Assembly: GCA_030537815.1 (NCBI GenBank)
Contig: JAUNVF010000012.1
Coordinates: 1-48,216, forward strand
Length of the DNA: 48,216 bases
Direction of reading: 5' to 3'
Source: Tissierellia bacterium
Lineage (GTDB): Bacteria; Bacillota; Clostridia; Tissierellales; Peptoniphilaceae
In this document: in pieces, positions 43,664 through 48,216 of the stretch
How positions within the stretch are numbered: position 1 is the stretch's first letter
Layout: each line of letters starts with the position of its first letter
Notes under the pieces: model-generated
Seen by the model: the letters and a program-made list of their open reading frames with translations, nothing else
Database searches by the model: none
What the model was told of the DNA's origin: nothing
Made by a program: the position numbers and the translations under genes

Positions 43664-44274
43664 TGGAATACTGCATTGAGAGTGAATACAGACAAGAGTA
43701 TATATGCGGCATAGACGAAGTAGGAAGAGGATGTCTTGCAGGACCCGTAGTCGCAGCTGCAGTCATAATGCCGAAAGAATATCTCGAAGAAATCGACGAT
43801 TCGAAAAAACTTTCAAAAAAGAAAAGAGAAAAAATGGATACCTATATTAGAGAAAATGCAATAGCTTTCGGAATTGCTGAAATTGATGTAGAAACCATAG
43901 ACAAAATAAATATAAAACAGGCATCCAGACTTGCCATGAAAAAGGCAGTAGAAGAAATGGTAAGAAAATACGAAATTGAACCAGAGATCCTGCTGATCGA
44001 CTCTGAAAATATAGAAACAGACTACGAACAGGTTTCAATTATAAGAGGCGACTCTTTGAGCTATAATATAGCCTGCGCATCAATACTTGCAAAAGTTTAT
44101 AGGGACTCATTATTTGTCGAATATGAAGAAAGATACCCAGGGTATTCATTTATAACAAATATGGGCTATGGAACCGCAGCACATATTGATGGAATAAAGA
44201 AAAACGGAGTTCTTCCCATACATAGAAAGAGCTTTATGGGAAAAATACTCAAGAGGATAAAAGATGAGTCTTAA
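43663..44274 (+). CDS. rnhB: Ribonuclease HII
   Basis: Removes ribonucleotides from DNA and degrades RNA-DNA hybrids. The 203-residue product has GIDEVGRGCLAGPVVAAAV with the catalytic Asp18-Glu19 pair, DDSKKLSKKKRE, a third acid in ILLIDSENI, and GDSLSYNIACASILAKVYRD (fourth acid). It ends HRKSFMGKIL, as in family members. Start overlaps the rbgA stop by one base; end overlaps yraN by 11. Confidence 0.97.
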   Translation: MEYCIESEYRQEYICGIDEVGRGCLAGPVVAAAVIMPKEYLEEIDDSKKLSKKKREKMDTYIRENAIAFGIAEIDVETIDKINIKQASRLAMKKAVEEMVRKYEIEPEILLIDSENIETDYEQVSIIRGDSLSYNIACASILAKVYRDSLFVEYEERYPGYSFITNMGYGTAAHIDGIKKNGVLPIHRKSFMGKILKRIKDES

Positions 44275-44611
44275 TAAAGGCAGAATCGGAGAAGATATGG
44301 CAGCAGAATATATCGAGAAAATCGGAATGAAGATTATCGATAGGAATTTTAGACTTCCAATCGGAGAAATAGACATCATCGCAATGGATGGTGATATCAT
44401 AGCATTTATAGAAGTAAAATCGAGAAAAACAGATAAATACGGTACGCCATCAGAATTTGTCGATCTTAAAAAGCAGAAGAGAATCTTGAATACAGCTGAA
44501 ATCTACATGAAAAATAATTCTCTTACAGAATTACAACCAAGATTTGATATTTGCGAAATCTACAGCGGTAAGTCAGAAATCAACTATATAGAAAATGCCT
44601 TTCCAAAATAA
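44264..44611 (+). CDS. YraN family (UPF0102) nuclease-like protein
   Basis: Predicted Holliday-junction-resolvase-like nuclease fold of unproven function. The 115-residue product shows NKGRIGEDMAAEYIEKIG, the catalytic-type GEIDIIAMDGDIIAFIEVKSRK (Asp, Glu-x-Lys) and DLKKQKRILNTAEIYM. Normal length. It overlaps rnhB by 11 bases and is closed by a strong terminator, making it the last gene of the rplS-rbgA-rnhB-yraN run. Confidence 0.92.
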   Translation: MSLNKGRIGEDMAAEYIEKIGMKIIDRNFRLPIGEIDIIAMDGDIIAFIEVKSRKTDKYGTPSEFVDLKKQKRILNTAEIYMKNNSLTELQPRFDICEIYSGKSEINYIENAFPK

Positions 44612-44635
44612 GCTGCGATTTAATCGCAGCTTTTT
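44611..44635 (+). terminator. Terminator after yraN
   Basis: AGCTGCGA (44611-44618) and TCGCAGCT (44624-44631) form a perfect stem with a five-base loop, then T to 44635. It marks the boundary between housekeeping genes and the agr-type locus. Confidence 0.9.
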
Positions 44636-44675
44636 AATTGCAACTCTGAAATAGCTTTTCAATTTGATAAAGAAA

Positions 44676-44704
44676 TTGCCTACTGAGATTATATTTGATA
44701 TGAT
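44676..44704 (+). promoter_or_regulatory. Promoter for the agrA-like gene
   Basis: TTGCCT at 44676-44681, 17 bases, TATGAT at 44699-44704 preceded by TGA (extended -10), 23 bases before ATG 44728. Confidence 0.6.
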
Positions 44705-44727
44705 ATTAGTCGATATAGGGGAGAGAT

Positions 44728-45441
44728 ATGATAAAAATAGCCGTAGTTGAAGATGAAAAATCGATTTTGGAAAAAATTAAATTTCTTATAGATAAAAATA
44801 TAAAAAATATCAAAAATATCGAAGTGGAATATTTTGACTATATTCCAAAAATAAATAAAGAAAGAAAATACGATATATATTTGCTCGATATTCAAGTCGG
44901 AAATGAAAACTCCATCGATTTGGCAAAGAAAATAAGAGAATATGATTTTAATTCAATCATCATATTTATTACATCATTTAATCAATATGTAACGGAATCA
45001 TATGATATAGGGGCATTTCACTATTTGGTAAAACCTATTAATGAAGAAAAATTTGATAAAATTCTAAGCAAAGCTATAACAAAAGTGCGTGATAAAGGAA
45101 AGATAATCACAATTCCCGACAAAGGATTTGCTTCCGAGGTAAATACAAAAGATATAATCTATATCGACATGATTGGCGGAGAAACAAAAGTATATCTTTT
45201 AAATGGAAATATTTTAAGCTCAAAAATCGGAATAAAAAAAGCATTAAATATATTAAATGATGACTATTTTATAAAAATCAGCAAATCTACAGTAATAAAT
45301 TTCAGATATTTTAAATCAGTAGATTTTAAAGCGAAAAAGATTTTTTTAAAAACAGGCGAAGAATTATATCCCAGTAAAAGAGAATTTACAAGATTTACAG
45401 ATATTTTAAAAATTTTGACAGTGGAGGATTATAATTGGTAA
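44728..45441 (+). CDS. agrA: LytTR response regulator, AgrA-like
   Basis: Cytoplasmic transcription factor that would be phosphorylated by the kinase encoded next. The 237-residue product has a receiver domain with acidic pair Glu8-Asp9, phospho-acceptor Asp54 (YLLDIQV), ITSFNQYVTESYDIGAFHYLVKPIN, and a LytTR DNA-binding domain (about 128-235) with IIYIDMIGGETKVYLLNG, FIKISKSTVINFRYFKSVD and LKTGEELYPSKREF. GGGGAGAG precedes the start. Its end overlaps the kinase start by seven bases. AgrA assignment rests on the agrB/agrD-like genes downstream. Confidence 0.9.
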   Translation: MIKIAVVEDEKSILEKIKFLIDKNIKNIKNIEVEYFDYIPKINKERKYDIYLLDIQVGNENSIDLAKKIREYDFNSIIIFITSFNQYVTESYDIGAFHYLVKPINEEKFDKILSKAITKVRDKGKIITIPDKGFASEVNTKDIIYIDMIGGETKVYLLNGNILSSKIGIKKALNILNDDYFIKISKSTVINFRYFKSVDFKAKKIFLKTGEELYPSKREFTRFTDILKILTVEDYNW

Positions 45442-46635
45442 ATTTCGTATTCCATACAATTAATAATTTAGTCGAATTTTATCTTGCGTATATCTATTTT
45501 TCAATATTTTTAAGAAAAAGAAAAGTCAATTATAAGATATCTTCTGTAATCCTTATAATATTATATATAATATATTCTTTTGTAAATATATATTTTAATA
45601 ATCCCTATTTTAATTTAATAACGGCTATAGCCGTTCATGTATTATTTCAAATTATATTATTTGATGGTGAAATTAAGTGGAGAATTATTTCTCTACTATC
45701 ATATATTGCTTTAAATATAGCATTAGATCTACTTATGACAATTCTGTTTAGTTACTTTACTACAGATGAATTAAATATAATTATTTTATTGATTTTAAAT
45801 TTTATAAAAACAGCAATTATATTATTTGTTAAAAGAATTTTGTACAATACAAATAAAAGAACAGATATTAAAATTATAATTGTTTTTAGTATTTATTGCA
45901 TATTTTTAGCTATGTATGGAGTTTTTAGAGGTTATAGTTTTTATGGTAACTTTGATTATTCAAGAGATATTGTAATTGCACTTGTTTTTATAATTAGCAT
46001 AATGATATTTTATTATATACTTGGCATTATCGATAAAAAGCTTGATTTTGAAAATAGAGTCAAATATCTTGAAATAAATAAAGATAAAGATTTATATTTA
46101 AAGCAATTAGAAGAATATGAAAAGCATTTAAGTGAACTAAAACATAATCTAAAAAATAGAAATATAGCCCTTTTAAACTATACTGAAGAGGAAAGACTAA
46201 AAAAGATTAAAGAATTTGTAGATATAGTAGATGATCCTCAAAAATCTATTTTTACTAAAAATAAATTGATACAAAATCTTATCCATATAAAAATAAAAGA
46301 TTTATTTATTGCAAAAGAAAATTTAAATATAAATATAAATATCCCCGAAGAATTAGATATGGATAAAGAAGATTTATCCACTATTTTAGGAAATTTAATC
46401 GACAATTCAATCGAAGCTGTAAATGCCTTAGAATATGATGACAGGAAGATTCTTATAGATATGGAATATAAAAATAATATTTTAATAATCTGTATAGAAA
46501 ACTCAAAATAGAAAGAGCGAAAGAAAAAGAGGATATGGTCTTAAAAGTATAAGGAAAATCCTTAAAAAATATAATGGAGATTTAAAGATTTCTAAAAATA
46601 AAAGATTTAAAGCCATAGTCTTAATTCCTATTTAG
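45435..46635 (+). pseudogene. agrC: AgrC-like sensor histidine kinase, frameshifted before the G-box
   Basis: Membrane sensor expected to read the cyclic peptide. The first frame (TTG 45435, GGAGG seven bases upstream, to stop 46511) gives 358 residues. These cover about six or seven membrane helices (1-200), a coiled linker, the phospho-acceptor His237 in ELKHNLKN and the N-box GNLIDNSIEAV (about 317-327). It stops after CIENSK. The +1 frame continues RGYGLKSIRKILKKYNGDLKI...VLIPI to stop 46635, the missing G-box and final strand. The shift lies at about 46500-46515, not in a long homopolymer. Error, decay or recoding are all possible. Confidence 0.82.
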
Positions 46636-46643
46636 TTTAAATC

Positions 46644-46678
46644 AGACAGCATTGCAAGAAAGCAAAGCTGTCTTTTAT
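46644..46678 (+). terminator. Terminator after the agrC-like gene
   Basis: AGACAGC (46644-46650) with GCTGTCT (46667-46673), and inner TTGC (46652-46655) with GCAA (46662-46665), then TTTT. Confidence 0.75.
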
Positions 46679-46734
46679 ATTTAAAATCAGATAAATTAAT
46701 TAGTCAAAATAAAGACTACATAATTTACTAAAAC

Positions 46735-46801
46735 CCCGAAAAAATCCCTTTAATCGATTATATCAAACGATTAATCAGAATAAATTTTTTCGGGATTTTT
46801 T
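46735..46801 (+). terminator. Two-tier hairpin/terminator upstream of agrD
   Basis: CCCGAAAAAA (46735-46744) pairs with TTTTTTCGGG (46785-46794); inside, TTAATCG (46750-46756) pairs with CGATTAA (46768-46774). Six T follow. The outer arms also suit a terminator on the other strand. Together with the stem at 46644 it isolates agrDB from agrAC transcription. The 46512-46864 stretch otherwise holds the displaced agrC tail, a small TAGTC/GACTA inverted repeat (46701-46718) and a promoter. Confidence 0.75.
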
Positions 46802-46802
46802 A

Positions 46803-46811
46803 TGCTATAAT
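46803..46811 (+). promoter_or_regulatory. Extended -10 promoter for agrDB
   Basis: TGC followed by TATAAT (46806-46811), about 53 bases before the agrD ATG. No clear -35 is present; the place where it should be lies in the T-rich arm of the preceding hairpin. A weak -35 is what an activator-dependent (AgrA-controlled) promoter would show. Confidence 0.5.
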
Positions 46812-46864
46812 TTGGTTAAGAATAAGAAATTACTCATTAAAATTAAATATAGAAGGCGAATATT

Positions 46865-47035
46865 ATGACTAAATTAAAAATTTTGTTAATATCTATCATT
46901 ATTAATTTTGGATTAAAATTAGGATATATACTAGGGGTCAAAGGTTGTTGGGGAACTACCTATCGTGAAGAATTAGATTCAGAAGAAAGAGATAAATTAT
47001 TACAGTTAATAAGAGAAGATAAATTAGATGATTAG
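46865..47035 (+). CDS. agrD: AgrD-like cyclic peptide autoinducer precursor
   Basis: A 56-codon ORF found by reading the gap before agrB. It has a Lys-containing hydrophobic/amphipathic leader (about 1-24, MTKLKILLISIIINFGLKLG), a short core around GVKGCWGTTY (24-33, a single Cys at 28) and a strongly charged acidic tail (REELDSEERDKLLQ, 34-47, to 56). This leader-Cys core-acidic tail layout is that of AgrD propeptides. AGAAGG lies nine bases upstream. The last codons overlap the agrB start by eight bases. The ring would be Cys28 to Thr32 (five residues) or to Tyr33 (six); which is unknown. Confidence 0.8.
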   Translation: MTKLKILLISIIINFGLKLGYILGVKGCWGTTYREELDSEERDKLLQLIREDKLDD

Positions 47036-47531
47036 AAGATATTTATATAAATTTGAAACTAAATCAAAAGTTGATTTAGCATTGTACGGATTGAGAAATG
47101 GTTTTCATCAGATTATAGTTTTTTGCTTATTATTGTTTTTAGGAAATAATATATTTAAATTTAGATATTCATTTTTGGTTCTAATACTTATGTATTTTCT
47201 ACAAATAAGACTTGGCAAATACCATTGCAAGACCAGATTTAGATGTTTTATATTTACATTATTTGTTTTTATATTAAATAATGTTATAGGGGAGAATATT
47301 TATAATTTATTAGATATAAGCAAAATTATCTATATTTCATTAATGCTATTTATGTTTTTTGTATATAAATTTAAAGTTTTTAAATTATCAATATTTATTT
47401 TCCTGATATATATAATATTAAACAACTATTGTAAGGCTTTAATATTTTCTTCTCTGCTTACTTTTATTATGGTTGAAATATTTTTTAAATGCAGAGTTGA
47501 AAATAATACTATAGAGCATGCTCAATATTAG
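47028..47531 (+). CDS. agrB: AgrB-like accessory gene regulator protease
   Basis: Membrane cysteine protease that cleaves the AgrD tail and closes the thiolactone ring. The 167-residue product has the N-terminal cytoplasmic YLYKFETKSKVDLALYGLRNG, a hydrophobic segment, then the catalytic region GKYHCKTRFRCFIFT, where His and the second Cys are separated by six residues, matching His77/Cys84 of S. aureus AgrB. Further helices follow (about 83-100, 103-115, 119-152). Slightly shorter than the usual 190 residues. Overlaps agrD by eight bases. Confidence 0.88.
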   Translation: MIRRYLYKFETKSKVDLALYGLRNGFHQIIVFCLLLFLGNNIFKFRYSFLVLILMYFLQIRLGKYHCKTRFRCFIFTLFVFILNNVIGENIYNLLDISKIIYISLMLFMFFVYKFKVFKLSIFIFLIYIILNNYCKALIFSSLLTFIMVEIFFKCRVENNTIEHAQY

Positions 47532-47584
47532 AAAAGGAGGAGGTTCTCGCAGATATTTACGGATTAAGTTACAAAAAGGAGTAT

Positions 47585-47623
47585 ATGTTCTCCAAAATCA
47601 ACACAAATAATAAAGAGGAGTAA
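47585..47623 (+). CDS. Possible 12-codon leader ORF
   Basis: ATG at 47585 preceded by AAAAAGGAG at good spacing encodes MFSKINTNNKEE and stops within the ribosome site (GAGGAGTAA) of the next gene. The 47532-47627 leader also holds two related segments, each AAAAGGAG followed by GTTCTC (47543 and 47587, 44 bases apart). Could be a regulatory uORF coupled to the secreted protein, or chance. Confidence 0.35.
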   Translation: MFSKINTNNKEE

Positions 47624-47627
47624 TAAA

Positions 47628-48017
47628 ATGAAAAACTACAAGAAAATATTTGCTGCAATTTTGTTGACATCAATTATAGTTTTCAATGGATTTACTGCAT
47701 ATGCTTACCCTAGATTTTATTTTATACTTCGTGCAGGTGAAACGAAATCTTCTGCTTCAGAAAAAAAGGTAGATAATCTAACAGGATTAGTTGATTTAAG
47801 ATCAAATAATTTCATAAGTGGAGAGGCTGCAAATTTTAGAATACGTACAGCAACCGGAGCTTATGCTACTGAGTATAGAACTTTATATGGAAATGCAAGA
47901 GTTGATTTAGCTTATCTTTCAGGAATGGGAGTGTATGGAAATTATTACAGACTATATTCCAATCCTGAAGTAATAAGGATATCTCCACTTCGAGTTTCTG
48001 GCGAGTGGATGCCGTAA
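47628..48017 (+). CDS. Small secreted protein of unknown function
   Basis: A 129-residue protein with a clear signal peptide: basic MKNYKK, hydrophobic core, and cleavage predicted after Ala26 (AYA/YPRF). The mature part, about 103 residues, is rich in Tyr, Arg, Ser and Gly and has no Cys. It ends in RISPLRVSGEWMP. The pattern (FYFILRAG, YRTLYGNARVDLAYL, SGEW near the end) reminds me of DUF2712-type secreted proteins, a weak resemblance. GAGGAG precedes the start. Downstream of agrDB, possibly on the same transcript; agr-controlled exoprotein or bacteriocin-like roles are speculation. Confidence 0.7.
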   Translation: MKNYKKIFAAILLTSIIVFNGFTAYAYPRFYFILRAGETKSSASEKKVDNLTGLVDLRSNNFISGEAANFRIRTATGAYATEYRTLYGNARVDLAYLSGMGVYGNYYRLYSNPEVIRISPLRVSGEWMP

Positions 48018-48055
48018 AAAGTTTAACAAGAGATAAATATTTCAACCAATAAAAT

Positions 48056-48085
48056 AATAGACATGCCCGGGCATGTCTATTTATT
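48056..48085 (+). terminator. 26-bp perfect palindrome, probable terminator
   Basis: AATAGACATGCCC (48056-48068) is directly followed by its exact complement GGGCATGTCTATT (48069-48081), then TTATT. As RNA it would fold with a small loop around CCCGGG. It lies between the secreted-protein gene and the lipoprotein ribosome site (TGGAGG, 48088). It could equally be a protein-binding dyad for the downstream gene. Confidence 0.6.
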
Positions 48086-48098
48086 AATGGAGGATAAA

Positions 48099-48216
48099 AT
48101 GAAAAGAAAAATATTAATCTGTCTTATAATTACTTTCTTTTTAACATCTTGTTTTCCTGAGGAAATGAATAAAGAAAATAATGAAATTCCGAAAAAGACG
48201 GATTCTCAAAATAATT
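48099..48216 (+). CDS. Lipoprotein N-terminus, gene cut by window edge
   Basis: ATG 48099 after TGGAGG opens a frame that runs to the window end (39 codons). MKRKILICLIITFFLTSCF is a type II signal peptide with lipobox LTSC (15-18; Cys18 lipidated by Lgt). The start of the mature part is polar and rich in Glu, Asn and Lys (EEMNKENNEIPKKTDSQ), a linker-like sequence. Function cannot be judged from what is present. Confidence 0.75.
   Translation, partial: MKRKILICLIITFFLTSCFPEEMNKENNEIPKKTDSQNN

Follow-up and report, generated by a model that had tools for sequence, protein, structure and literature searches.

We report an open reading frame (ORF) that very probably encodes the AgrD propeptide of an agrA-agrC-agrD-agrB locus in a Tissierellia bacterium. 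It lies at 46865–47035 on the forward strand of the window, by which we mean the whole 48,216-nucleotide (nt) contig analysed, one of the 68 contigs of a 1.9-Mb genome that is 84.6% complete. The predicted core of the peptide is ordinary, while its tail and its partner enzyme AgrB are unusual, which suggests an offshoot of a signalling type already known. The best overall explanation, one we hold with good though not full confidence, is an AgrD-type propeptide of a group in which AgrB-AgrD recognition has probably been altered; we infer its processing, ring and sensing.

ORFs overlapping agrB share one layout

The translation of the ORF has 56 residues before the stop codon, with a hydrophobic leader carrying scattered Lys, a sole Cys at position 28 and an acidic tail without Pro. 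The ORF overlaps agrB, which starts at 47028, by 8 nt, and a ribosome-binding-site-like GAAGG is seen by eye 8 nt 5′ of its ATG. A first-pass annotation of the sequence had described a 56-codon gene overlapping agrB with a hydrophobic leader, a lone Cys28 and an acidic tail, and the translation, the overlap and the match of the agrB product to PF04647 agree with it. The features by which an AgrD is recognized, namely a small ORF beside agrB with a leader, a Cys or Ser nucleophile and a charged tail, are all found here.

Among 5000 sequences generated from a first-order Markov model of 46640–47035, 33 had in their final 60 nt the end of an ORF 56 or more codons long. When the model was built on 46640–47027, excluding the ORF's own stop, 21 of 5000 did so. 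From this test alone, a chance origin is unlikely, and stronger evidence that the ORF is real comes from ORFs at the same place in two relatives.

In a family set of 130 genomes, AgrB was found at E up to 1e-5 in four, and AgrB of the window type in three, which are the window's genome, one of the same genus (G001) and one of another genus (G074) with two copies, on contigs C32 and C50. ORFs overlapping the start of agrB have 57 codons in G001 and 51 codons in G074 C32, so that the three members span 51–57 residues with a common leader-core-acidic-tail layout. G074 C50 begins inside the agrD equivalent; reading by eye gives only DEPIADEDVEYLKRT with a stop that overlaps agrB. Thus, agrD overlaps agrB in all three loci with readable upstream DNA, and the fourth, at a contig start, has an overlapping tail. 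The sensor gene agrC and the gene for the AgrA LytTR regulator both adjoin agrD in the window, and both are open in G074 C32, where the four agr genes are arranged as in the window and none has an interrupted frame.

The three peptides are also similar in sequence. The motif C-W-x-x-x-Y-[KR]-E-E-L is common to the peptides of the window and G074, and their similarity score (51) was reached by none of 20,000 shuffles and by 2 of 20,000 when the leader and the rest were shuffled apart. The same holds for G001 and G074 (score 53; 0 and 2 of 20,000), and the score of the window and G001 (42) was reached by 29 and 160 of 20,000, respectively. In a MAFFT alignment the Cys28 column has Ser in G001 and Cys in G074, and the Tyr33 column has Phe in G001 and Tyr in G074. 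Lactones closed by Ser are known from Staphylococcus pseudintermedius and Enterococcus faecalis (PMC3673130, PMC12312760; these and the papers below are cited for the portions available). The tail begins with [KR]-[ED]-x-L in three of the four loci.

With its place beside agrB, its adjoining agrA and agrC and its related ORFs in G001 and G074, the AgrD-like propeptide of the first-pass annotation is supported, as is its expectation that the ORF be kept in related genomes. It is further supported by the window AgrB being the sole AgrB above the Pfam cut-off in its genome at 84.6% completeness, where two weaker matches have E of 0.018 and 0.185.

The predicted core has a classical geometry

The group was compared with 57 classical AgrBs and the frames beside them. 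These comprise L006 and L007 from the family search, 25 order or class loci matching a four-row alignment of the group's AgrBs (L014–L025 and L028–L040, with L019 the same as L020) and 30 of the best PF04647 matches in a phylum sample (L043–L072), so that they are not a random draw. A frame fitting [CS]-x(3-6)-[EQ]-P-x-x-P lies beside 43 of the 57; two more have EP or QP only, and no such frame was found beside 12.

In 38 of these 43 AgrDs the distance from the nucleophile to the residue before [EQ]-P equals the spacing of Cys28 and Tyr33, and that residue is Tyr in 31 of the 38, although the count sees only frames of the above form with a nucleophile picked by rule, and other spacings are invisible to it. 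By this spacing, the predicted CWGTTY core occupies the classical core position. The first-pass annotation had called a Cys-Trp-Gly-Thr-Thr-Tyr core unusual, which is not supported, since C-x4-Y outnumbers every other geometry in the classical AgrDs found. The exact core is absent from the other AgrDs compared; since autoinducing peptide (AIP) sequences differ between species, this is ordinary in itself. Trp occurs within the ring of tabulated AIPs (CLWFT, CPWII), and a six-residue ring, CVLVTL, is tabulated for Clostridium acetobutylicum (PMC12312760).

The ring could be Cys28–Thr32 (CWGTT), with Tyr33 as the first tail residue, or Cys28–Tyr33 (CWGTTY), and we see nothing to choose between the two, either of which is compatible with any reading of the locus. 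Five-residue rings are the majority among AIPs in the portion of the table examined (PMC12312760). In Clostridium perfringens the likely ring is CLWFT, and the next residue, a His, is as far from Cys as Tyr33 is from Cys28; toxin production was lower with a six-residue ring, CLWFTH (PMC7300355). On the other hand, position 33 is aromatic in all three members (Y, F, Y), whereas position 32 is T, Y or A, and six-residue rings are predicted for C. acetobutylicum and relatives (PMC10301443).

Tail and AgrB depart from the classical type

Pro-x-x-Pro is missing from the three full tails (window, G001 and G074 C32) and from the tail of G074 C50, which is partial and contains a single Pro. The absence of the usual Pro, remarked upon in the first-pass annotation, is thus confirmed and is common to the group. 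The AgrD of Staphylococcus aureus also has an acidic tail, which is not known to contain Pro-x-x-Pro. This motif has been described as the part of the AgrD tail to which AgrB binds (PMC3901668, PMC8748961).

All four AgrBs score above the PF04647 cut-off of 23 bits (window, 40.1; relatives, 28.4, 53.1 and 36.6), and the equivalents of His66 and Cys73, forming the catalytic His-x6-Cys, are kept in all four at 22–30% identity to the window protein. Two residues before His, all 57 classical AgrBs have Gly, whereas the group has Lys (window), Pro (G001), Ser (G074 C50) and Gln (G074 C32). Seven residues before His, the window has Gln and the other three have Arg, Arg and Lys; the classical proteins have Arg (52) or Lys (5). 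A Pro-containing segment after the fourth helix is 17–24 residues long in all 57 classical AgrBs, but 5 in the window and 1 in G074 C32, the two full-length members; the AgrBs of G001 and G074 C50 end before or at this region. The window AgrB keeps Lys at the shortened loop (YKFKVFK).

In S. aureus AgrB, R70, G75 and H77 are listed as needed for proteolysis, and the loop between helices 4 and 5 carries K129–131, mutants of which reportedly keep peptidase activity but lose AIP formation (PMC10196373). R70 and G75 are unmatched in the window AgrB, and the loop is much shorter. In a tree of AgrBs the four members fall on one side of a branch with support of 94/94, recovered in 96% of the 200 bootstrap replicates; branches are long, and the bootstrap had yet to settle. 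AlphaFold2, given the window AgrB with two relatives, returned a predicted local distance difference test (pLDDT) of 50.6 and a predicted template modelling score (pTM) of 0.32, and this model was set aside.

Because AgrD lacks Pro-x-x-Pro and AgrB lacks both the Gly before His and the Pro-containing loop, AgrB-AgrD recognition has probably been altered on both sides. By its sequences this is a variant AgrBD pair with matched changes in enzyme and substrate, known from three genomes. In other respects the propeptide resembles classical clostridial AgrDs, with like length, hydrophobic leader, one nucleophile, C-x4-Y spacing, charged tail and a gene touching or overlapping agrB, and differs in lacking [EQ]-P-x-x-P after the core and a match to the model TIGR04223. 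Its gene lies upstream of agrB, a position that only some classical loci share. A six-residue ring, as predicted for the Agr system of C. acetobutylicum (CVLVTL), is possible for the window. The four components are those of S. aureus agrBDCA, in another gene order.

Distribution of the group

When contigs were searched with the window AgrB alone, no relative was found, and with the four-row AgrB alignment only both G074 contigs were; one scan of viral contigs for the AgrB group gave no match. In genome sets the alignment matched 15 of 249 order genomes and 13 of 391 class-sample genomes at E up to 1e-6, and 4 of 398 phylum-sample genomes at E up to 1e-7. Outside the three genomes (G000, G001 and G074) no match was better than E of 5.2e-11. 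The phylum matches outside the window were L033 and the place of L073 (also L044), already among the classical 57, and L074 and L075, which also have Gly two residues before His.

An alignment of the AgrDs matched 17 of 248 order genomes at E up to 0.05, with the three known members at E of 1.2e-25 or better and the remaining 14 at 0.002 or weaker. The two of these 14 that were inspected (L086, L088) are noise-like, overlapping unshared longer frames of 136 and 536 residues, and were rejected. Among the literature matches listed, which leave subscription literature mostly outside their scope, no paper deals with agr of this bacterial group. The terms AgrD and PxxP together also retrieved no paper, a weak negative since both motif papers (PMC3901668, PMC8748961) spell the motif otherwise.

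Proposed processing and signalling

The amphipathic leader would set AgrD on the inner face of the membrane, where AgrB, by His66 and Cys73, would cleave ahead of the acidic tail. The cut would follow Thr32 or Tyr33, and a thiolactone would form through the thiol of Cys28. A separate protease would trim the leader, and the neighbouring AgrC would sense the cyclic peptide and signal via the LytTR regulator. Five matches to PF02517, which we take to be the family of the S. aureus leader protease MroQ, are above cut-off in the window genome, an unspecific result as 11 of 14 control genomes also have one. MroQ of S. aureus is a CAAX protease (PMC12312760).

A more specific proposal, offered tentatively and in our view rather doubtful, is a joint swap of recognition parts, in which the propeptide would be held by its [KR]-[ED]-x-L acidic tail in place of Pro-x-x-Pro and the protease would do without Gly and the long loop.

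The locus and its neighbours

Features of the locus and its surroundings are listed in Table 1.

Table 1 Features around the putative agrD gene of the window.
Feature	Coordinates	Strand	Basis
agrA-like response regulator (receiver and LytTR)	44728–45441	+	Pfam PF00072, 53 bits; PF04397, 41.7 bits
agrC-like sensor kinase, 358 aa, frame stopping within the GHKL ATPase domain	45435–46511	+	PF14501, 34.3 bits, profile positions 1–48 of 102
C-terminal part of kinase domain (RKRGYGLKSIRKI...) in a different frame, start approximate	46512–46635	+	Three-frame reading; likeness by eye to the G074 kinase C-terminus
Inverted repeat followed by a T run, likely agrCA terminator	46730–46799	+	Arms 46730–46745 and 46784–46799, 94% complementary
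TGCTATAAT, candidate extended -10 of an agrDB promoter	46803–46811	+	Sequence
agrD-like propeptide, 56 aa	46865–47035	+	Translation, alignment, shuffle tests
agrB, 167 aa	47028–47531	+	PF04647, 40.1 bits; His66 and Cys73 present
129-aa protein with signal-peptide-like start, candidate output gene	47628–48017	+	55% identical homologue near the classical agr of G001
Small lipoprotein-like gene, start only, ending at the contig edge	48099–48216	+	ORF list

Because an inverted repeat and a T run lie between agrC and agrD, agrD and agrB may form their own transcript, separate from agrCA. The repeat was not reported by the terminator scan, which permits loops of 3–8 only, and TGCTATAAT is not among the promoter-like sites of the promoter scan. 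No Rfam family reached its threshold in 44000–48216. G074 has a direct 17-nt repeat with 20-nt spacing before agrD, with no clear counterpart in the window. The window agrC product is 35% identical to that of G074 and 25% to that of G001, both of which are open where the window frame breaks. In G001 agrA and agrC are separated by a gene that is transposase-like by eye (L011 2777–3994), and the start of agrC may be affected. The GC content of the four agr genes (44728–47531) is 20–25% against 35% for the window, and from this low value the genes may be of horizontal origin.

The 129-aa protein matches nothing in Pfam at E up to 1. Its G001 homologue, followed by a similar small lipoprotein-like ORF (by eye), lies near a classical agr locus, beside a C8-like bacteriocin/immunity fusion (TIGR04450, 31.0 bits, cut-off 27; L080 2280–2945) and a thioredoxin-like gene, so that this one neighbour gene is common to two agr types, the window type and the classical type of G001. 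At this classical locus, the second agr of G001, a probable agrD has its leader and its core (CIAIAYQPKFPKN) in different frames by eye (L006 2030–2150). The most intact locus of the group, in G074, has a gene for a matrixin-like metalloprotease (PF00413, 28.5 bits, cut-off 24) after agrB (2047–2556, L010). BLASTP finds no similarity between the window and G074 C50 in the secreted proteins encoded after agrB. An exported product would be the regulated cargo of the locus.

Weighing alternative explanations

Several observations weigh against an AgrD of altered recognition. The window peptide matches no family of Pfam and NCBIfam at E up to 10, and the NCBIfam model TIGR04223 (quorum_AgrD), which matches all seven hand-chosen classical control AgrDs, matches none of the three group members; the staphylococcal AgrD model of Pfam was useless as a test, as these seven controls also have no match above its cut-off. 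Of the checks proposed in the first-pass annotation, the search of AgrD models therefore failed to recognize the window peptide, while that of agrB neighbours turned up the related ORFs of G001 and G074. The G001 peptide lacks Cys and is the least similar to that of the window, and the group is only three genomes in size. AgrB has 117 residues in G001 and 104 in G074 C50, and a break or truncation is present in three of the four loci. In the window, agrC stops within its ATPase domain and resumes in another frame by three-frame reading, the break being an assembly error or a true loss. Since agrC is frame-broken, the window copy may be without signalling, sensing having been lost in this genome, and the window AgrB may be inactive, since it has Gln and Lys at the equivalents of S. 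aureus R70 and G75.

The main rival, which we consider unlikely though by no means negligible, takes the locus as a decaying agr remnant, in which an AgrD descendant is left in a system losing function and the missing Gly, loop and Pro-x-x-Pro reflect relaxed constraint. The broken agrC, the altered R70 and Gly75 equivalents, the short AgrBs of G001 and G074 C50, the transposase-like gene between agrA and agrC of G001 and the long branches of the AgrB tree all fit such decay. However, AgrB His and Cys are kept in all four members, and agrD is open in all three loci with a similar core and tail. Moreover, G074 C32 has its four genes open, yet it also lacks Gly, loop and Pro-x-x-Pro, and frame breaks can also stem from assembly errors. 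A further reading is that the ORF encodes a small antimicrobial or membrane peptide, overlaps agrB by coincidence and supplies no AgrB substrate; it would agree with the missing AgrD model match and with the C8-like bacteriocin fusion near the second agr of G001. We give it hardly any chance, as relatives have at the same place similar peptides of similar length and leader-core-acidic-tail layout, and as none of the three other small same-strand ORFs listed around the window agrB is AgrD-like by eye.

Implications

If the proposed joint swap of recognition parts is true and the protease is active, the group would offer a natural reduced AgrB, which would cyclise its peptide with a differently built site, or only cut it to yield a linear peptide. 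At least one group of probable AgrDs goes unrecognized by the curated AgrD model. A high-resolution structure of AgrB was described as not yet available as of 2023 (PMC10196373). Because it lacks the motif described for AgrB binding and, in AgrB, the reportedly required Gly and most of the ring-linked loop, this group would be a natural test of which parts AgrB needs to recognize AgrD and close the ring.
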